Of a stretch of DNA of 47,373 nucleotides, positions 30,141 through 39,436 are shown in pieces. Position 1 is the stretch's first letter; each line of letters begins with the position of its first letter. A model generated the notes under the pieces. It ran no database searches and was not told where the DNA came from. It saw only the letters and a list, made by a program, of their open reading frames with translations. The position numbers and the translations under genes were made by a program. This DNA is from Sedimenticola sp. (GTDB taxonomy: Bacteria > Pseudomonadota > Gammaproteobacteria > Chromatiales > Chromatiaceae), in assembly GCA_026984735.1 (NCBI GenBank), contig JALSRN010000057.1, positions 1 to 47,373 on the forward strand, read 5' to 3'.

Positions 30141-32413
30141 TGGCCGGCTCCCAGCACTACTCCGCCGAGGGGATCGAACGGATCCCCCTGGCTGAATTCA
30201 CCGAGCGGGCGTATCTGGACTACTCCATGTACGTCATCCTCGACCGCGCCTTGCCCCATGTGGGCGACGGCCTCAAGCCGGTGCAGAGGCGCATCGTCTA
30301 CGCCATGTCCGAACTGGGGCTCTCGGCTTCGAGCAAGCACAAGAAGTCGGCGCGTACCGTGGGCGATGTTCTCGGCAAGTTCCATCCCCACGGCGACAGC
30401 GCCTGCTACGAGGCGATGGTGCTCATGGCCCAGGAGTTCTCCTACCGCTATCCGCTCATCGACGGCCAGGGGAACTGGGGCTCGCCCGACGATCCCAAGT
30501 CCTTCGCCGCCATGCGCTACACCGAAGCGCGTCTCACCGCCTATGCCAAGGTGCTGTTGCGCGAGTTGGGACAGGGGACGGTGGAGTGGGTGCCCAACTT
30601 CGACGGCACCCTCAAAGAGCCGGCCCTGCTGCCGGCGCGGCTGCCCAACGTGCTGCTCAACGGTGCCACCGGCATCGCCGTGGGCATGGCCACCGACATT
30701 CCGCCGCACAACCTGCGCGAGGTGGCCGGCGCCTGCATCCGCCTACTCGAATCGTCGCGGGCTTCCTTGGAAGAGTTGTGCGAACACATTCAGGGTCCCG
30801 ACTTTCCCACCGAGGCGGAGATCGTCACCCCGCGCGCGGAGCTGTTGAAGATCTATGCCACCGGGCGGGGGAGCGTGCGCGCCCGTGCCCGTTGGGAGAG
30901 GGAGAACGGCAACTTGGTGATCACCGCCTTGCCCTACCAGGTTTCGGGAGCGCGCATCCTCGAGCAGATCGCCGGTCAGATGCGCGCCAGGAAGCTCCCT
31001 TGGATCGAGGATCTCCGCGACGAATCGGACCACGAGAACCCCACCCGCCTGGTGATCGTTCCGCGTTCCCGCCGGGTGGATCCGGAGCGGCTCATGTCGC
31101 ATCTGTTCGCCACCACCGATCTGGAGCGCAGCTACCGCGTCAATCTCAATCTCATCGGCCTCGACGGTCGCCCACGGGTGAAGAACCTCAAGGAGATCCT
31201 CCAGGAGTGGCTCCGGTTCCGGCTGGCCACCGTGCGCCGCCGCCTCCAGCACCGTCTCAACCAGGTGCTCGACCGGCTCCATCTGCTGGAAGGGCTGATG
31301 GTGGTCTATCTCAATCTGGACGAGGTGATCCGCATCATCCGTAGCGAGGACGAGCCCAAGCCGGTGCTCATGGCCCGTTTCGATCTCACCGAAGTGCAGG
31401 CCGACTACATCCTCGACACCCGTCTGCGGCAACTCGCCCGTCTCGAGGAGATGAAGATCCGGGCCGAGCAGGAGAGCCTGGAGGAGGAGCGCAAGGAGTT
31501 GGAGAAGATTCTCGGCTCCGAACGGCGCCTCAAGACGCTGGTGAAGAGGGAAATCGCCGCCGATGCCGAGGAGTTCGGCGATGGCCGGCGCTCGCCGCTG
31601 GTGGAACGCCCCTCGGCGGAAGCGCTGGACGAGAGCGAGTTGGCCCCCAGCGAGCCGGTCACCGTGGTGCTTTCGCAGAAGGGGTGGGTGCGGGCCGCCA
31701 AGGGGCACGAGATCGACCCCACCGGCCTGAACTACAAGGCGGGCGACGGCTATCTGGACGCGCTGCGGCTGCGCTCCAACCAGCCGGTGGTGTTTCTCGA
31801 CTCCACCGGCCGCAGCTACTCCCTGGCTGCGCACACCCTGCCGTCGGCCCGGGGGCAGGGTGAGCCGCTCACCGGCCGCTTCTCCCCGCCCGCCGGCGCC
31901 GAATACGTCACCCTGCTGGGCGGCGATCCGGAAAGCCGCTGGCTGCTCGCTTCGGATGCCGGCTACGGTTTCGTGGCCCGGTTGAAGGATCTGCTGGCCA
32001 ACAAGAAGGGGGGCAAGGCGGTGCTCACCCTTCCCAAGGGGGCGGCCGTGCTGCCGGCCTGGCCGGTGACCGATCCAGCCACCGACCGGGTAGTGGCGGT
32101 GACCAGCACGGGGCGGATGCTGGTGATCCCGGTGAGCGATCTTCCCGAGATGGCGCGGGGCAAGGGGAGCCGCATCATCGCCATTCCCGGCAAGCGCGTG
32201 GAGGCTCGGGAAGAGTTCGTCAGCGCCATCGCCGTGGTGCCGGAGGGCGCGCGCCTGAAGCTGCTCTCCGGCCGACGTCACCTCAATCTCAAGGCCGCCG
32301 ATCTCAACGCCTACGAAGGGGAGCGGGGCAAGCGGGGAACGAAACTGCCGCGCGGATTCCAGAAGGTGGACGGCCTGTTGCCGGTCGGTCAGGAGTTCAA
32401 GGCTTCTCGATAG
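30140..32413 (+). CDS. parC: DNA topoisomerase IV subunit A
   Basis: A 757-residue type IIA topoisomerase breakage-reunion subunit. The quinolone region is recognisable ([20 protein letters not shown], then [20 protein letters not shown]) with the catalytic Tyr in [11 protein letters not shown]. The C-terminal part is a beta-pinwheel with degenerate GyrA-box-like blades ([12 protein letters not shown] onwards). ATG 30140 overlaps the stop of the DUF302 gene. The last 25 bases overlap the 3' end of the convergent phosphoribulokinase-like gene. Forms ParC2ParE2. Confidence 0.97.
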
Positions 32414-33351
32414 CTTCGCACGATCCGGTGCACCAGCGGAGCGCAGATGACGCGGATGGCGTGTTCCAGCTGACCTCCCGGAATCACCAGCGTGTTGCGC
32501 CGGGACATCCACGACCCCTTGATGCGCTTGAGAAAGTGGGGAAAGTCGTGCCCTCTGGGGTCGCGGAAGCGAATCACCACGATGCTCTCGTCCAGCGAGG
32601 GGATCTCGCGCAACACGAAGGGGTTGGAGGTGTCGGTCAAGGGTACGCGCTGGAAATTGATGTCGGTGAGCGAGAACTGGGGAACGATATATTTGATGTA
32701 GTCGGGCAGGCGTCGCTGGATGGTCTGGATGGTGCTTTCCGCCGGCTTGTTCTTGTGGTGCGCGTCCCGGTAGATCTTCTGGATCCACTCCAGGTTGATG
32801 ACCGGGACCACGCCGATGAGCAGATCCACCCAGCGGGCGATGTCCAGTTCGGGCGTTTCGCACAGCGCCACCTCCAGGCGGCGGCGCACCACTTCGGGGT
32901 TGTGGGAGGGAGAGGTGTCGCGTTGGCTCCAGGGCCTTTCCGAATAGCCGCCGTGGAGGCCGTCGTAGACCAGCACCTCGGTGCCGCCCGGAATCTCCTC
33001 CCAGGGCGTGAACGAGCCCACCGGTCGGTCGTAGATCTCCGCCAGCTCCTCGTTCTCCACATAGCGGCGACAAAGGCCGGTGCCGGTGCGCGAGTACTCG
33101 CGGAACAACCCCTCCAACCGCTCCAGATAGTTGGCCTCCGGCGAAAAGTGGCTCAGGCAGTAGCCCTGTTGGCGGCACCGCTCCACCATGTACCTCATGG
33201 CCTTGCGGTCGTAGCGGCGAAAGGCGTTGCCATCCACTCGGAAACGGGTGATCCCTTCCTCCTTGAGCAGTCGGTCGAACACCTTTCGAAAGGTGGTGGT
33301 GCCGGCGCCCGAAGAGCCGGTGAACGCGATGATGGGATGCTTGACGGACAT
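32389..33351 (-). CDS. Phosphoribulokinase-family protein with altered catalytic positions
   Basis: A 320-residue P-loop kinase matching bacterial phosphoribulokinase over its length: P-loop [10 protein letters not shown] (residues 11-20), [15 protein letters not shown] (129-135), [17 protein letters not shown] (180-196) and [20 protein letters not shown]. However, the segment aligned with Rhodobacter VEGDAFHR reads VDGNAFRR: the catalytic Asp42 is Asn (codon AAC), His45 is Arg, and the conserved acidic residue of YEGLHG is Asp. Lys192 and Asp196, equivalent to Lys165 and Asp169, remain. About 25 extra residues (137-174) lie between GLHGG and VDLLIGVVP. No RuBisCO gene adjoins. Ordinary Calvin-cycle activity is therefore doubtful; a paralogue with another substrate or regulatory role is possible. 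Confidence 0.85.
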
Positions 33352-33445
33352 GGTTCACCACGAAGGTTTCGGGGTGCAAGCAAGTGTTTTTTATATCACA
33401 AAGACCAAAAACCTTATAATATGAAAGGAAAGTAGCCGAGCTCCC

Positions 33446-35014
33446 TCACCAGGGGCGCGGCTCCCGCAGCGGTGCGGTGCGGGAGTTGACGGCCCGCTGT
33501 TCGTCGAGCAGAAACTGGTTCCTCAGCAGGTAGGCGGGGTTGCCTTCGGCCTGCTCCAGCCACTGTTCCATCAGGCCCATGGCGCCGCGACCGGGAGCCG
33601 CGGCCGGCTTGTTGGCCAGCCCCTCTTCCTGCCCCTCTTTTTGGCTCTTTTCGGTGCTCTGGGCGCCAAGCTGGTCGAATTTTTCCACGGCGCCCTGTTC
33701 CCTGCTCGCCTCTTCCGCATTGAAGGTTTCGGTTTCGCCGGCGGGGCCTCGGCGCCTTCGCGCCGGCGGCCGCTTTTCGGAGGGGCGGGGCCGTCGCTCG
33801 TGCTCCGGGCCCTCCCCGGGCGTTCGAGGCGTTGCCTGCGGCCGCTTCTCGCCTTTTCCCGTGGCGTTCTCCTTTTCGCTCTTTCTCCAACCGCCTTTCT
33901 CGCCTCGCTCCTCTTGAGCGCTGCTCGCCCCTTCGGTCGCGGAGGGCTCCGGCGGTTGCTCTTCGGTGCCTTTCGCCTCGGTGCGGCGTTGCTCCTCTCC
34001 GCCTTCGCCCTCTTTTTTTCGCTTCTCACGGCCGCCGGCTTCACTCTCTTTTTGCTTTTCTTCGCCTTTTTCACCGGAAGAGGTGGGATTGGTTTCCTTC
34101 TCTTTGCCGGACCGCTCGGAAGCCTTTTTCGATCCCTCTCCTTCTTTCTCTTCCTGGGAAGACTCTTCGGCCCCTTGCGGCTCCTGAGTTTGCGACCGGC
34201 TGCCACCTCGGTTCTTCTCGGAAGCGGATTCTCCCTCCGTTTGGGTCTCTTCTTGTCGCCCCTCTTGCTGCTGTTGTCCCGACTGCTGACCCTGCGAGGA
34301 CTGTTGGGATTGCTGTTGCTGCTGGCCGGCTTGCTGTTGGGACTGCTGCTGGGACTGCTGCTGCTGGGACTGCTGTTGCTGGGACTGCTGTTGCTGGGAC
34401 TGCTGTTGCTGGGACTGCTGTTGCTGGGACTGCTGCTGCTGGGACTGCTGTTGCTGGGACTGCTGTTGCTGGGACTGCTGTTGCTGGGACTGCTGTTGCT
34501 GGGACTGCTGTTGCTGGGACTGCTGCTGTTGGGACTGCTGCCGGGGCCGTTGGCGGCGCTCTCGTTCTTTCTTCTTCTGCTGCTCGCGCTCCTTCCGCTT
34601 CTTCTCTTCCTTCTCCTTGCGCTGGGCTTCCACCTTTGCAAGGAGGGCGTTGACCAGAGAGAGGTTGTAGCGGGCGTCTTCGTGATCGGGCCGATGCTCG
34701 AGCGCCTGGCGATAGCTCTGGGCGGCCGCCTTCAGATCGCCCATGCGGAACTGGCTGTTGCCCAGGTTGTAAAGGGCGTCGGCCAGGCGTCGCCGGTCCT
34801 TCACTTTGGCGAACGCCTCCGCCGCTTTGGCGAAGCGCCCGGCGCGATACCACGCCATGCCCTGGCGGAAAGGCGTTCGAAAAGTCTCTGCGGCGGCCGG
34901 GTAGTCGCCCTGGCGATAATATTCCCAACCCTTCTGTTCCGCGTTCAGAAAGAGATCCGCGTGCACGCCCAGCGGCAGCGAGGAGAGCAGGCCAAGGAGC
35001 AGCAACCGTTTCAT
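33446..35014 (-). CDS. BatC-like TPR protein with (Gln4-Ser)12 tract and charged low-complexity tail
   Basis: A 522-residue exported protein. A signal peptide (MKRLLLLGLLSSLPLGVHA) precedes tetratricopeptide repeats to about residue 125 (DALYNLGNSQFRMGDLKAAA is clear). A basic coiled-coil-like stretch follows, then twelve perfect QQQQS repeats (residues 162-221), and a long Glu/Lys/Ser-rich disordered region. The C terminus (MGLMEQWLEQAEGNPAYLLR) is well folded and typical of Bat TPR proteins. The ATG at 35014 overlaps the BatB stop (ATGA) and follows GAGGTG. It is the last Bat gene here; relatives act with VWA proteins in the periplasm in stress tolerance or protein-complex assembly. Confidence 0.88.
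   Translation of the reverse strand: MKRLLLLGLLSSLPLGVHADLFLNAEQKGWEYYRQGDYPAAAETFRTPFRQGMAWYRAGRFAKAAEAFAKVKDRRRLADALYNLGNSQFRMGDLKAAAQSYRQALEHRPDHEDARYNLSLVNALLAKVEAQRKEKEEKKRKEREQQKKKERERRQRPRQQSQQQQSQQQQSQQQQSQQQQSQQQQSQQQQSQQQQSQQQQSQQQQSQQQQSQQQQSQQQQSQQQSQQQAGQQQQQSQQSSQGQQSGQQQQEGRQEETQTEGESASEKNRGGSRSQTQEPQGAEESSQEEKEGEGSKKASERSGKEKETNPTSSGEKGEEKQKESEAGGREKRKKEGEGGEEQRRTEAKGTEEQPPEPSATEGASSAQEERGEKGGWRKSEKENATGKGEKRPQATPRTPGEGPEHERRPRPSEKRPPARRRRGPAGETETFNAEEASREQGAVEKFDQLGAQSTEKSQKEGQEEGLANKPAAAPGRGAMGLMEQWLEQAEGNPAYLLRNQFLLDEQRAVNSRTAPLREPRPW
34352..34531. repeat. 15-bp minisatellite, 12 copies, coding for QQQQS
   Basis: Twelve uninterrupted 15-base units encode the pentapeptide Gln-Gln-Gln-Gln-Ser in the minus-strand TPR gene; partial units flank it (34340-34540 in all). 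Units differ only by CAG/CAA choice at one or two positions. As each unit is a multiple of three bases, copy-number change would alter protein length without breaking the frame. Confidence 0.97.
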
Positions 35015-36027
35015 GAGGCACCTCTGGCATAGCGCGAACGGGGTCCGAAGAGCCACAGCGCCAACAGCACCACCGGAAAGAGGAAGAGGTAGAAACGTTC
35101 GTTCCAGATGCGGGTGGGGCGACCCTTGACCCGCTGCTTGTCGGCGTCCGCGAGCACCGCGTCGAGAATGGCCCGCACGTCCCGATCCTGGTAATCGGCC
35201 AGTTCGAAGCGCCCGCCGCCCAGTTTCGCCAGGCGGCGCAGCTCATCGGGGCGCAAGCGGGAGATCACCGCCCGGCCGTCCGCCGCCGTGATGTAGGGTA
35301 CCGGCCCTCCGCCTTCGGTGCCCACGCCCAGCACATGGAGGCGGATGCCCTCTTGCCGCAGTCGCCGGACCTTCTCGTCGAGGTCGGGCTCGTCGAAATC
35401 GCCATCGGTGATGAGCAGGATGTGGTGGCTGATGCGCTTTTTTCCTTCCGCGGGCGTGAACAGCAGAGCGGCTTTGTCGAGCGCATTGCCCAGCCGGCTG
35501 CCGGGCAGATGGACCAGATCGGTGGAGAGGCTGGGAAGCACATGGCGCAGAGTCTCCAGGTCCTCGGTCAGCGGCGCGATCACATGGGCGACGGTGGCGA
35601 AGGCGATCAGGCCGACGCGGATGCCGGGATCGAGGCGGATCAGATCCTGGATCTCCTGTTTGGCGCGCGCCAGCCGGGAAGGACGCACGTCCCGGATCTT
35701 CATGGAAGCGGAGATGTCCAGCAGGATCACCAGCTCGGCGGCGGGCTGGAAGGCGGCGATGCGGTGATAGTCCCAGCGGGGGCCGGCCATGGCGGTGACC
35801 GAGAGCGCCCAGGCGAGACTCCAACCGGCCACCACCTTCCAATCACGCCCTTTCGCGGTCCGCGTCTCGCCGGTGAGGTGAGGCATCAGTTCCGCGTCGG
35901 CGTAGAGGTATTCCCGGCCTCGTTGTCGCCGGGGGCGGCTCAGCCGCAGCCAGCCGACGACCAACGGGAGCGCCAGCAGCAGCCACAGCCACATCGGTTG
36001 GGCGAAATGGAAGCCGCTCTCAGTCAT
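35011..36027 (-). CDS. batB: BatB-like VWA-domain membrane protein
   Basis: A 338-residue protein with an N-terminal membrane helix pair (PMWLWLLLALPLVVGWL and around residues 65-82), a von Willebrand A domain and a C-terminal helix (FYLFLFPVVLLALWLFGP). The MIDAS metal site is intact: Asp104-Ile-Ser106-Ala-Ser108, with later Thr and Asp residues (ITDGDFDEPD). The VWA domain faces the periplasm. Starts overlap BatA by eight bases and its stop overlaps the TPR gene. Part of the MoxR-DUF58-DUF4381-BatA-BatB-TPR cassette. Confidence 0.92.
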   Translation of the reverse strand: MTESGFHFAQPMWLWLLLALPLVVGWLRLSRPRRQRGREYLYADAELMPHLTGETRTAKGRDWKVVAGWSLAWALSVTAMAGPRWDYHRIAAFQPAAELVILLDISASMKIRDVRPSRLARAKQEIQDLIRLDPGIRVGLIAFATVAHVIAPLTEDLETLRHVLPSLSTDLVHLPGSRLGNALDKAALLFTPAEGKKRISHHILLITDGDFDEPDLDEKVRRLRQEGIRLHVLGVGTEGGGPVPYITAADGRAVISRLRPDELRRLAKLGGGRFELADYQDRDVRAILDAVLADADKQRVKGRPTRIWNERFYLFLFPVVLLALWLFGPRSRYARGAS

Positions 36028-37057
36028 GGAGACTCTCCACCGGCAGCCGCCACCGTCCTCCCGGGAAGAGGCCCAGAAGCAGCAGGCTCAGCAGGGCGAC
36101 GGCCAACGGCCAGCGAAACAGGGGATGGGGCACCCAGACGGTGCGGGATTCCGCTTTGCTCTTCTCCAGCTCGTTGATCCGCCGCGAGATCTCCTCGAGG
36201 GCGTTGGCGTCGCTCGCGCGGAAATAGGCGCCTCCCGTGGTCTCGGCGATCTTGCGCATGGTGGCCTCGTCGAAACCGAGGTCGGAGCGGTAGACCAGCC
36301 GCCCCTCTTCGATGATGGGTACCTCTTTCTGGTGGCTGCCCACTCCGATGGTGTAGATCCGCACCCCCTCGGCGGCCGCCAGCCGGGCCGCCTCGAGCGG
36401 GGGGATGGTGCCCGCGGTGTTCTCGCCATCGGCCACGAGGATCAGCACCCTGGAGCCGGGAGGCCGCTCGCGGAGCTTTTTGATGCCCAAGCCGATGGCG
36501 TCGCCGATGGCGGTGCCGTCCCCGGCGATGCGCGGCACCAGATTGTCGAGCAGTTGGCGGACCATGCGGCGGTCGAGGGTGAGAGGGGAGAGCACGAACG
36601 CCTGGTTGCCGAAGATGATGAGCCCCACGCGGTCTCCCTTGCGCTGCTCGATGAAGCGCCCCATCACCCCTTTGACCACCTGCATGCGGCTCACCTGGCG
36701 GCCGTTGACGGTGAAATCGAGAGCCTCCATGGAATGGGAGGCGTCAACCGCCAGCATCAGGTCGTAGCCGGCCACCTTCTCGTCGGTGAAGGGTTGCAGC
36801 CATTGGGGACGCATGAGGGCCAGCGTCAGCCCCAGCCACAACAGGACCACCAGGATGCGTTGAACGAGAGAACCCCGACTCAGGCCGGGTCGGTGCCCCT
36901 GGAAGGCCGACTGCAACCGTTGTAGGGAAGGATAGAGCAGGGTGGTGCGGCGCTGACGATACTCCTCCAGGGCGTCGAGGCGCCGGCGGGTCATGAGCCA
37001 CTGCGCCAGCGGCAGCACCAGGAGCAGAACCATCCACGGCCACTCGAACCGGATCAT
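36020..37057 (-). CDS. batA: BatA-like VWA-domain membrane protein
   Basis: A 345-residue protein of the same plan as BatB: N-terminal helices (PWMVLLLVLPLAQWLM and ILVVLLWLGLTLALM), a VWA domain with MIDAS Asp105-Ala-Ser107-His-Ser109 and the later VADGENTAG, and a C-terminal helix (LAVALLSLLLLGLFPGG). ATG 37057 (MIRFEWPWMVL) is the only sensible start; upstream frame extension has no family match. It overlaps the end of the DUF4381 gene by four bases. It should interact with metal through the MIDAS and with the MoxR ATPase system. Confidence 0.92.
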   Translation of the reverse strand: MIRFEWPWMVLLLVLPLAQWLMTRRRLDALEEYRQRRTTLLYPSLQRLQSAFQGHRPGLSRGSLVQRILVVLLWLGLTLALMRPQWLQPFTDEKVAGYDLMLAVDASHSMEALDFTVNGRQVSRMQVVKGVMGRFIEQRKGDRVGLIIFGNQAFVLSPLTLDRRMVRQLLDNLVPRIAGDGTAIGDAIGLGIKKLRERPPGSRVLILVADGENTAGTIPPLEAARLAAAEGVRIYTIGVGSHQKEVPIIEEGRLVYRSDLGFDEATMRKIAETTGGAYFRASDANALEEISRRINELEKSKAESRTVWVPHPLFRWPLAVALLSLLLLGLFPGGRWRLPVESLHD

Positions 37058-37545
37058 CGCGGGTGTCTCCGGGCCCACACCAGGGCCGCCTGAATGAGGC
37101 GTTCCACCTGTTCCCGGCTCACCGGGCACTTCCCGGGCGGGGCGTAGGCGGAGGTGATCAGGGCTTTTCCCTCCCGCCGCCAGGGAAACCGTTCCGGATC
37201 TTTCTGTTCCAGCCACTCCAGCCAGGCTTCTCCGTTCAGCCCCGCCGCCGCTTCCCGCCCCGCCCGCGCCACGGCGATGCGGCGCATCAGTTCCGAAAGC
37301 TCGCGCACGGCCTGTTCGGGAGTGAGTTGGCTGCTGAGTCGGCGCAGCGCCAGCAGCTGGTTGCGGGCGTCGCGGTGCCAACTCCCCGGCGGATAGCGGC
37401 GCAGACTGCGGATCGCCAGCCACAGCAGGGCCGCCGCCAGCAGGCCGCCCAAAAGCAGCAGCCACCAGCCCAGGGCGGGCGGCCACCAGGAGGGGGGCGG
37501 CAGCTCGTGGATGTCGCGCATGCGCGCCACCAGGGCGTCGTTCAC
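37054..37545 (-). CDS. DUF4381 family membrane protein
   Basis: A 163-residue protein with a single membrane helix (ALGWWLLLLGGLLAAALLWLA) and a soluble domain containing RRIAVARAGREAAAGLNGEAWLEWLE, a pattern typical of DUF4381 proteins in MoxR/Bat cassettes. The start is GTG 37545, preceded by GAGG at eight bases and overlapping the DUF58 stop. An ATG at 37617 lies inside the DUF58 gene and gives an atypical basic leader. Function unknown; the context predicts a membrane component of the VWA complex. Confidence 0.88.
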   Translation of the reverse strand: MNDALVARMRDIHELPPPSWWPPALGWWLLLLGGLLAAALLWLAIRSLRRYPPGSWHRDARNQLLALRRLSSQLTPEQAVRELSELMRRIAVARAGREAAAGLNGEAWLEWLEQKDPERFPWRREGKALITSAYAPPGKCPVSREQVERLIQAALVWARRHPR

Positions 37546-38468
37546 AAATAGGCCCTCGCTCGCAGCCGGCGCTCCAGGCCACGCATCAGCGCGCCGTGCA
37601 CCTCTTCGTGGGTCCACACCGGAATCACCGCCACGCCCAAGCTGTTGGCCAGTTGGATCAGGCGCCGGCGGCGGCTCTCCCAGGCTTCACGGTAGCGTTC
37701 CCGCGCCCCGGCGTCCGAGGTGTCCACCTCCAGGAGCCCGCCGTCGGGGCTGTGGAACAGCACCGTTCCCATGTCCGGCAGTTCGCGCTCGGCGGGATCG
37801 TCGATGGGGACCAGCACCGCCGAGTGACGCTGGCAGAGCTGCGAAAGCGGCTGCTTCAGCACGGTGGGGTCGAGGTTGAAATCGGCGATGACGAACACCA
37901 GCCCGCCGGTGCCGATCCCCTGGCTGGCCTTGCGCAGGATCTCCGGCAGGCTGCCCGAGCCGTGTTCGGTCTCGCACTGTTCCGGAACCGTGGTCAGCCC
38001 GTGGAGCAGGCGCCACAACGCCTGCCGGTCTTTGGTGGCGCGGAAATAGCGGTCTTCGCAACGCGGATCGCCGAAGAGGACGCCGCCCACCCGGTCGTGA
38101 AGATGGTTGGCCGCCCAGCCGAGCAGGGCGGCGGCTTTGGCCGCCTGGATCGACTTGAAGGTGCCACGCGTGCCGAAATCCATGTGGGGGCCTTTGTCCA
38201 CGCAGAGCATCACGCTGCGCTCCCGTTCCTCGCGAAACACCTTGAGATGGGGTTCGCCGGTGCGCGCGGTCACCTTCCAATCCATGTTGCGGATGTCGTC
38301 TCCTTCGTGGTATTCGCGCACCTCTTCGAAGTTGAGCCCCTGCCCGCGAAAGACCGAGGCGTAGAGGCCGGCGAAAGAGGAGTTGACCAGGTGATGCGAA
38401 GCCATGCCCAGGGCATGGGCCTGGTGACGCAGTTCCAGGAGGTCGTCGAGTACCGGTTGCAGGCTCAC
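37542..38468 (-). CDS. DUF58 domain protein
   Basis: A 308-residue protein with the DUF58 core: GQGLNFEEVREYHEGDDIRN, MDWKVTARTGEPHLKVFREE and a VWA-like second half (VMLCVDKGPHMDFG...VIADFNLDP). The DKGPHM motif replaces the usual DxSxS of a full MIDAS. GTG at 38468 is the start, with a weak ribosome binding site; MoxR ends 12 bases upstream. It follows moxR in the usual order for these ATPase-chaperone cassettes. Confidence 0.92.
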   Translation of the reverse strand: MSLQPVLDDLLELRHQAHALGMASHHLVNSSFAGLYASVFRGQGLNFEEVREYHEGDDIRNMDWKVTARTGEPHLKVFREERERSVMLCVDKGPHMDFGTRGTFKSIQAAKAAALLGWAANHLHDRVGGVLFGDPRCEDRYFRATKDRQALWRLLHGLTTVPEQCETEHGSGSLPEILRKASQGIGTGGLVFVIADFNLDPTVLKQPLSQLCQRHSAVLVPIDDPAERELPDMGTVLFHSPDGGLLEVDTSDAGARERYREAWESRRRRLIQLANSLGVAVIPVWTHEEVHGALMRGLERRLRARAYL

Positions 38469-38479
38469 GGACGGGAGGC

Positions 38480-39436
38480 TCAGGGAATGGCCACCAATGA
38501 AAGCAGCTTTTCGATCACGTCGTCGGCGGTGATCCCCTCGGCTTCCGCCTCGAAGCTGAGGAGCACCCGGTGGCGCAGGATGTCGGGGGCGATCTTCTGG
38601 ACGTGGCCGGGCGAGACGAACTCTTCGTCGTCCAGCCAGGCGCGGGCGCGGGCGCAGCGGGCCAGCGCCAAGGAGGCCCGCGGCGAAGCGCCGAAGCGGA
38701 TCCAGCGGGCCATCTCCTTGTCGTAGAGGCCGGGGTTGCGGGTGGCCTGGACCAGGTCCACGATGTAGCGGTTGAGCTTGGGGTCCAGATAGACTTCGGC
38801 CACCGATTTGCGCATGGCGAACAGGGCCGACTGGGGCAGCGGCTCGGGCGGAGGGGCCTCCACCGCCTGCTGCCGGTTGTGGTCCAGTTCGAGAATCTCC
38901 AACTCCTCCTCGTGGCTGGGATAGTCCACCACCACCTGCATCAGAAACCGGTCGAGCTGGGCCTCGGGGAGCTGATAGGTGCCCTCCTGTTCCACGGGGT
39001 TCTGGGTGGCGAGCACCATGAAGAGATCGGGCAGGTGGTAGGTCTTCTGGCCCACGGTGATCTGCCGCTCGCCCATGGCCTCGAGCAGAGCCGCCTGCAC
39101 CTTGGCGGGCGCCCGGTTCACTTCGTCGGCCAGCAGGATGTTGTGGAACAAGGGGCCGGGGCGGAATTCGAACTCGGCCTTCTCGTGGCGGTAGATGTCG
39201 GTGCCCACGAGGTCCGAAGGGAGAAGGTCCGGAGTGAACTGGACACGGTGAAAGTCGCCTTCGAGTCCTTCGGAAAGGGCGTTCACGGCGGTGGTCTTGG
39301 CCAGCCCCGGCATGCCTTCCACCAGGAGGTGGCCGTCCGCCAGAAGACAGATGAGCATGCCGTCCACCAGATTCTGCTGGCCGATGACGCGGGTATGGAT
39401 GTGCTTGCGCAGAGGGTCGAGTGCTTGGGGAGTCAT
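38480..39436 (-). CDS. MoxR-family AAA+ ATPase
   Basis: A 318-residue ATPase with Walker A GMPGLAKT (residues 41-48), Walker B ILLADEVNRAP, sensor region FMVLATQNPVEQEGTYQLPE and a C-terminal helical lid domain ending DVIEKLLSLVAIP. MoxR proteins act as chaperones for VWA-domain partners. It is the first gene of the minus-strand cassette that reaches 33446. A promoter for it was not identified: TATAAC at 39468-39463 on this strand lacks a -35. Confidence 0.95.
   Translation of the reverse strand: MTPQALDPLRKHIHTRVIGQQNLVDGMLICLLADGHLLVEGMPGLAKTTAVNALSEGLEGDFHRVQFTPDLLPSDLVGTDIYRHEKAEFEFRPGPLFHNILLADEVNRAPAKVQAALLEAMGERQITVGQKTYHLPDLFMVLATQNPVEQEGTYQLPEAQLDRFLMQVVVDYPSHEEELEILELDHNRQQAVEAPPPEPLPQSALFAMRKSVAEVYLDPKLNRYIVDLVQATRNPGLYDKEMARWIRFGASPRASLALARCARARAWLDDEEFVSPGHVQKIAPDILRHRVLLSFEAEAEGITADDVIEKLLSLVAIP

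Follow-up and report, generated by a model that had tools for sequence, protein, structure and literature searches.

A young in-frame QQQQS minisatellite in the fast-evolving linker of a Bat-type TPR protein of Sedimenticola sp.

What does an uninterrupted series of twelve QQQQS units do in a TPR protein that is predicted to be secreted, and how did it get there? The question is raised by a stretch of 47,373 nucleotides (hereafter the window; contig JALSRN010000057.1, assembly GCA_026984735.1) from Sedimenticola sp., whose nearest named relative, the only one returned by a scan of named genomes, is a MAG also labelled Sedimenticola sp. (JALWGP010000139.1). The gene concerned (33446..35014, minus strand) encodes a stand-alone TPR protein of 522 aa, assigned from its translation, its TPR Pfam matches and its start context. 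The array, evident from the sequence and from TRF, occupies 34352..34531 on the minus strand, precisely where the original prediction had placed it. It corresponds to residues 162-221, that is 12.0 in-frame units of 15 bp; TRF delimits it slightly more generously (34343-34540, period 15, 13.2 copies, 97% match).

The TPR gene is the last of a MoxR-DUF58-DUF4381-VWA-VWA-TPR run on the minus strand, after which comes a phosphoribulokinase gene. The run comprises a MoxR AAA+ ATPase (38480..39436; PF07726, PF17863), a DUF58 protein (37542..38468; PF01882), a DUF4381 protein (37054..37617; PF14316), a BatA-like VWA protein (36020..37057; PF00092; start at 37057 deduced from an ATGA overlap) and a BatB-like VWA protein carrying the Pfam BatA N-terminal region (35011..36027; PF00092, PF07584), the end of which is overlapped by the TPR gene start, again as ATGA. 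The closest NCBIfam model to the BatA-like protein is VWA_BatA_Lepto, with a score below the model cut-off. These Pfam matches, which bring MoxR ATPase, DUF58, VWA and TPR proteins together in a single run, agree with the earlier assignment to a Bat cassette. An identical order was found in four other genomes examined (L041, L076, L077 and L078, the contig of the last stopping after DUF4381). No BatD gene adjoins the TPR gene: on its 3′ side, 32389-33446 encodes the phosphoribulokinase, which is its neighbour wherever this can be seen (window, L041, L077). In the window genome, BatD matches are confined to two other contigs, C93 and C94, and contig C57, that of the window, has none; on C94 BatD adjoins a VWA-TPR fusion paralogue. 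In 12 chosen relatives, a BatD match was found near the stand-alone TPR gene in G024, G021 and G033 (below the family cut-off in G033) and not near it in G016; in seven genus members the matches were on other contigs, some of them short, or far from the TPR gene, and G012 gave no match. BatD seems to be missing from the cluster in the window's genus, and because none lies beside the TPR gene we speak of a Bat-type cluster and not of a complete Bat cluster.

A comparable arrangement is described in Leptospira, which has BatB and BatC in fused as well as separate form; for Bat proteins a periplasmic complex has been proposed (PMC3557215, in the part consulted). As in the window, VWA proteins are clustered there with a TPR protein, which may stand alone or be joined to a VWA protein. 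Unlike the Leptospira cluster, the window has no BatD at this place, and no linker such as the one considered here is described for BatC in the part of that source consulted. The window TPR protein scored 50.7 bits against the NCBIfam model of Leptospira BatC (NF047507), compared with a curated cut-off of 175.

The protein begins with a hydrophobic leader (34958..35014, minus strand, as are all segments below), a presumed signal peptide lacking a lipobox Cys; its hydropathy maximum is 1.7, in windows starting at residues 4-5. On the strength of this leader the TPR protein is predicted to be secreted, in line with the periplasmic location first proposed. The TPR domain follows (residues 20-123, 34646..34957; delimited by Pfam, AlphaFold2 and dN/dS), with a TPR_1 match at residues 78-111 (E 1.3e-14) and AlphaFold2 pLDDT of 97-99 from residue 31 onward. 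Next comes a K/E/R-rich extension (residues 124-161, 34532..34645), recognised as a predicted helix continuing out of the TPR domain and as a charged stretch in the aligned orthologues. It separates the TPR domain from the array, which had been thought to lie between that domain and a charged region: the array does follow the TPR domain, but the charged stretch comes first. Beyond the array, the remaining low-complexity linker (residues 222-474, 33593..34351) is mostly predicted to be disordered, with pLDDT mostly below 50 and helix or strand absent except at 433-436. It contains a short conserved motif, AVExFDQLG (residues 442-450, 33665..33691), in which A442 and Q448 are invariant and D447 and G450 near-invariant in a 17-sequence alignment.

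The C-terminus is formed by a conserved element (33449..33592) with two predicted helices, 477-489 and 493-511. Its last 48 residues are conserved among the 17 sequences, with E483, Q484, L486, G491, P493, L496, Q500, F501, E505 and W522 invariant, and the protein ends in EPRPW. An E-x-R-P-W end is present in 16/17 orthologues, L022 ending differently. This element takes the place of the C-terminal membrane anchor that had been suggested: the maximum 19-residue Kyte-Doolittle mean after residue 40 is 0.15, there is no hydrophobic segment after the leader, and the C-terminus is soluble. In the AlphaFold2 model the first helix has pLDDT of ~50-60 and the second 68-78, and the same two helices are modelled in a VWA-TPR fusion paralogue (~41-44 and 75-81). 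None of 16 members has a Pfam match to the element, and a Foldseek search with the AlphaFold2 model returned, among the 50 matches listed, TPR-type matches only, none attributable to the C-terminal element. A profile of the element matched 39 of 274 genomes of the class at E 0.001 or better, stand-alone proteins strongly and VWA-TPR fusions weakly. In the window genome the fusion paralogue L003 has the C-terminus WLRRIPDDPGGLLRRKF, and L002 has a divergent form. Among the fusions with a related C-terminus, 14/20 end in W.

As a protein sequence the array is perfect, as was claimed for its DNA as well. The DNA, however, consists of nine copies of CAGCAACAGCAGTCC, two of CAGCAGCAGCAGTCC and one of CAACAGCAGCAGTCC, every difference being a synonymous CAA/CAG exchange, so that nine units are identical and three are synonymous variants. 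The distinguishable variants sit at units 1, 7 and 12. At least one step of its growth appears to have been the duplication of a five-unit block, beyond single-unit slippage, because units 3-7 and 8-12 share a variant pattern inside an exact 89-base repeat with an offset of 75; such a duplication would fit unequal exchange. As ssDNA, the CTG-rich array strand has a folding energy of -27.9 kcal/mol (z -8.9), compared with -8.8 (z -3.8) for the coding strand. It could form a mismatched hairpin, in keeping with growth by slippage. A chance origin of the array is excluded: the window linker has a tandem score of 61, whereas 300 whole-linker shuffles gave at most 7, and a further 300, confined to 30-residue blocks so that the local Q-richness is preserved, at most 31. 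Phase variation by frameshift was rejected, as a 15-bp unit preserves the frame, and the antisense ORFs over the array (a 463-aa plus-strand ORF and others) were taken as a mechanical consequence of the stop-free repeat.

The linker was compared with those of related proteins. The TPR part was matched in 44/55 genomes, the window's own included. Twenty loci (L001, L012-L030) have the stand-alone form or a truncated counterpart of it. Contig ends interrupt three of them (L016, L018, L030), and the analysis used the other 17, the window's included. All 17 have a low-complexity linker of 260-440 aa, mostly Q/E/S/G-rich. Tandem repetition exceeded all 300 whole-linker shuffles in 15/17 linkers, the window's among them. 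Whole-linker shuffling destroys local composition; shuffling within 30-residue blocks retains it and lowers the count to 13/17, removing L012 and L013. At least three tandem copies together with success in both controls were found in 10/17 linkers. Their units are QQQQS (window), 10-aa units (two linkers), 11-aa units (five linkers, 3 to 22 copies), a 12-aa unit and a 22-aa unit, so that repeats occur at the same place in many orthologues and differ from lineage to lineage, as had been anticipated. The remaining linkers have 1.3 to 2.3 copies, and L012, L013, L014 and L026 fail the block-shuffle control. In the window's own branch repetition is sporadic, because no clear array stands out under this control in L012, L013 and L014, its closest relatives (8, 135 and 215 of 300 block shuffles, respectively, reach the observed score). 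The motif QSG[E/D/Q] exceeded all 500 shuffles in 11/17 linkers, the window's not among them; judging from these sequences, the window array may have locally supplanted an older region of QSGE type. The net charge of the window linker (33593-34639, residues 126-474) is +1, and those of the other 16 range from -15 to -96. Twelve E-to-K/R changes are specific to the window linker relative to two close relatives, in an uncertain alignment.

The VWA-TPR fusion paralogues, such as L003 and L002, resemble the window protein in having a TPR domain, a low-complexity linker and a related C-terminus. In contrast, their linkers are 91-170 aa long and carry no tandem arrays, 0/20 passing either shuffle control. 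This set of 20 aligned fusions includes L003 and leaves out L002 (divergent), L032, L033 and L038 (cut, or lacking the C-terminus in the locus), L036 (a stand-alone form), and L056, L060, L062, L067 and L068. Arrays are nevertheless not confined to the window's orthologue group, because in L038, a VWA-TPR paralogue truncated by a contig end, an (NQQ)n run extends to that end, and L036, a stand-alone form of another family, has ~9 copies of KDKQD. A screen for arrays in L043-L053 (mostly stand-alone forms of other families), carried out without shuffles, revealed arrays in L043, L048, L049 and L050; L044, L046, L047, L051, L052 and L053 yielded no linker suitable for the screen.

The array is young, because the doubled DNA unit is present in none of 54 relatives: a search of 55 genomes with a DNA pattern in which the TCC and CAG/CAR codons were fixed found it in the window's own genome only. 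Likewise, QQQQSQQQQS occurs in 1/17 orthologous linkers. Both results bear out the recent in-frame expansion that was first proposed; a stable element would have shown identical copy number and codon pattern, and our comparison, made between species, found no such identity. Relative to the sister L012, dN and dS are 0.10 and 1.12 for the TPR domain (dN/dS 0.09), 0.06 and 0.58 for the C-terminus (dN/dS 0.10), and 0.52 and 2.0 for the linker, the alignment of which is uncertain. The array arose long after the split from L012, because dS between the sisters is near saturation, the array holds only three variant units and L012 has no clean array. From these substitution rates, the TPR domain and the C-terminus are under purifying selection, and the linker between them changes fast.

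We consider it probable that the array is a young in-frame minisatellite within a long, fast-evolving linker, or tether, of a secreted Bat-type TPR protein, and that this linker has been repeatedly rebuilt by in-frame minisatellites. The TPR domain would be followed by a charged, probably helical extension, then by the linker, and finally by the conserved helical element with its E-x-R-P-W end, which would dock elsewhere in the Bat-type envelope complex. What would be kept is not the sequence but a mostly Q/E/S/G-rich composition and a length of about 340 residues. Now and then, an in-frame tandem duplication would replace older, decayed repeats, and the window species would have used QQQQS for this; its copy number may vary within the species. 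The docking is putative, and the low confidence of the first helix of the C-terminal model counts against it. More tentatively, and with rather more doubt than belief, we suggest that stand-alone Bat TPR proteins hold a hot spot of repeat renewal, where recurrent same-place in-frame minisatellites would keep a periplasmic tether of ~340 residues near constant length during sequence turnover, presenting a previously undescribed E-x-R-P-W C-terminal element to an envelope partner.

The alternative that survives best, possible though still somewhat unlikely, is that the array is a neutral by-product: neither length nor composition would be required, and repeats would come and go by slippage without selection. 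The high dN of the linker, the different units of each lineage, their lack in some close relatives and the minisatellites found elsewhere in a 272-kb sample of the window genome all agree with this. However, linker length is 343 +/- 49 aa in the 17 orthologues, a CV of only 0.14, and the mostly Q/E/S/G-rich composition persists, with 16/17 linkers acidic (not the window's own). Moreover, the related fusion proteins hold a length of their own, shorter and free of arrays in all 20 tested.

That linker length is held also bears on adaptive tuning, according to which copy number would often change within populations and adjust the reach of the TPR module, as do the repeats of E. coli tolA. The unit is a multiple of three, the array is young and tolA offers a precedent (PMC3477136, consulted in part). 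In three genus members with a common 11-aa unit, ~9, 13 and 22 copies go with linkers of 340, 397 and 435 aa. Total linker length, on the other hand, is not predicted by array span across the 17 orthologues (Spearman 0.16, p 0.55; phylogenetically linked sequences taken without tree correction, arrays counted from three copies), and this flat relation speaks against simple tuning, which we regard as unlikely. On a short time scale length would seem to follow copy number, while across the family it stays near 340. The negative correlation of array span with the remainder of the linker (rho -0.73), which might look like compensation, was discarded, since a part set against its own remainder is biased towards negative values.

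Equally improbable in our estimation is a rigid rod, in which the charged extension and the array would form one long helix holding the C-terminal part at a distance. AlphaFold2 does predict a single helix from residue 112 to 210, over the end of the TPR domain, the charged extension and most of the array, so part of the array may be a rod, a point that counts against our preferred reading; the charged stretch after the TPR domain in orthologues agrees with this. However, confidence drops steadily through the array (pLDDT stays above 90 as far as about residue 160, declines from 88 to 74 by residue 200 and is 58 over 201-210), most other orthologue units contain G (SGDQESEQQQ type), which disfavours a helix, and the remaining linker is predicted to be disordered. 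Structure prediction often overestimates helix where a sequence is charged or rich in Q.

That the assembler produced the copy number, or the array itself, is very improbable: related contigs do end at or inside the linker in 3/20 stand-alone loci, but the array has three distinguishable variants, in the relative G007, assembled in 3 contigs, the corresponding place holds an array of 22 copies of a different unit, and the frame stays intact through the array to the conserved C-terminus. The number twelve depends on the assembly and is provisional, as in all draft assemblies, because the window genome is a draft of 101 contigs and the array contains the 89-base internal repeat.

Returning to the tether that we favour, two known systems offer a comparison. 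The consulted part of Zhou, Michiels and Aertsen (2012; PMC3477136) reports in-frame 15/18-bp repeats in the periplasmic connector of E. coli TolA, with 8-16 copies in 234 isolates and 13 imperfect copies in MG1655; stress tolerance differs among constructed variants of 2-39 copies, and the array can contract, in a RecA-dependent manner, at 6.9e-5. Going by these parts of the paper, the window protein shares with TolA repeats of 15 (or 18) bp, a multiple of three, in the connector of a (predicted) secreted protein of an envelope complex, the frame being kept. Unlike the window protein, TolA is membrane anchored and its repeat segment is Lys/Ala-rich in a long helical domain; strain variation and phenotype are demonstrated for TolA, and no homology is claimed. 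FtsZ likewise combines a folded domain, a hypervariable disordered linker and a short conserved C-terminal binding element (PMC12607630, in the part consulted), a layout that the window protein reproduces with its conserved ends and unconserved low-complexity middle. In contrast, FtsZ is cytoplasmic, its linker has ~50 residues in E. coli, and tandem arrays are not mentioned in that part of the source. By analogy with TolA and the FtsZ linker, the window protein would belong to an already-known kind of variable envelope protein and would not constitute a new system. The Bat TPR linker is not among the cases covered in the consulted part of a review of prokaryotic low-complexity regions (PMC6821194), and we recognised no literature on repeats in Bat TPR linkers, as judged by titles and the beginnings of abstracts.

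Two results are worth keeping: that the C-terminus with its RPW end is conserved, and that arrays recur within a single protein family. This C-terminus, which lacks a Pfam match, gives a practical starting point in the search for a partner of the TPR protein, the function of the Bat cluster being unsettled. The family also provides a natural set of linkers alike in length, of which some are made of unrelated repeats and others have none; with it one could ask whether selection acts on the length or on the sequence of a bacterial disordered tether. As to repeats outside the TPR gene, the minisatellites observed elsewhere in the window genome (L080 3855-4016, L089 14929-15049 and L092 5343-5460) have a TCATTCC core in common and look like a dispersed repeat family.
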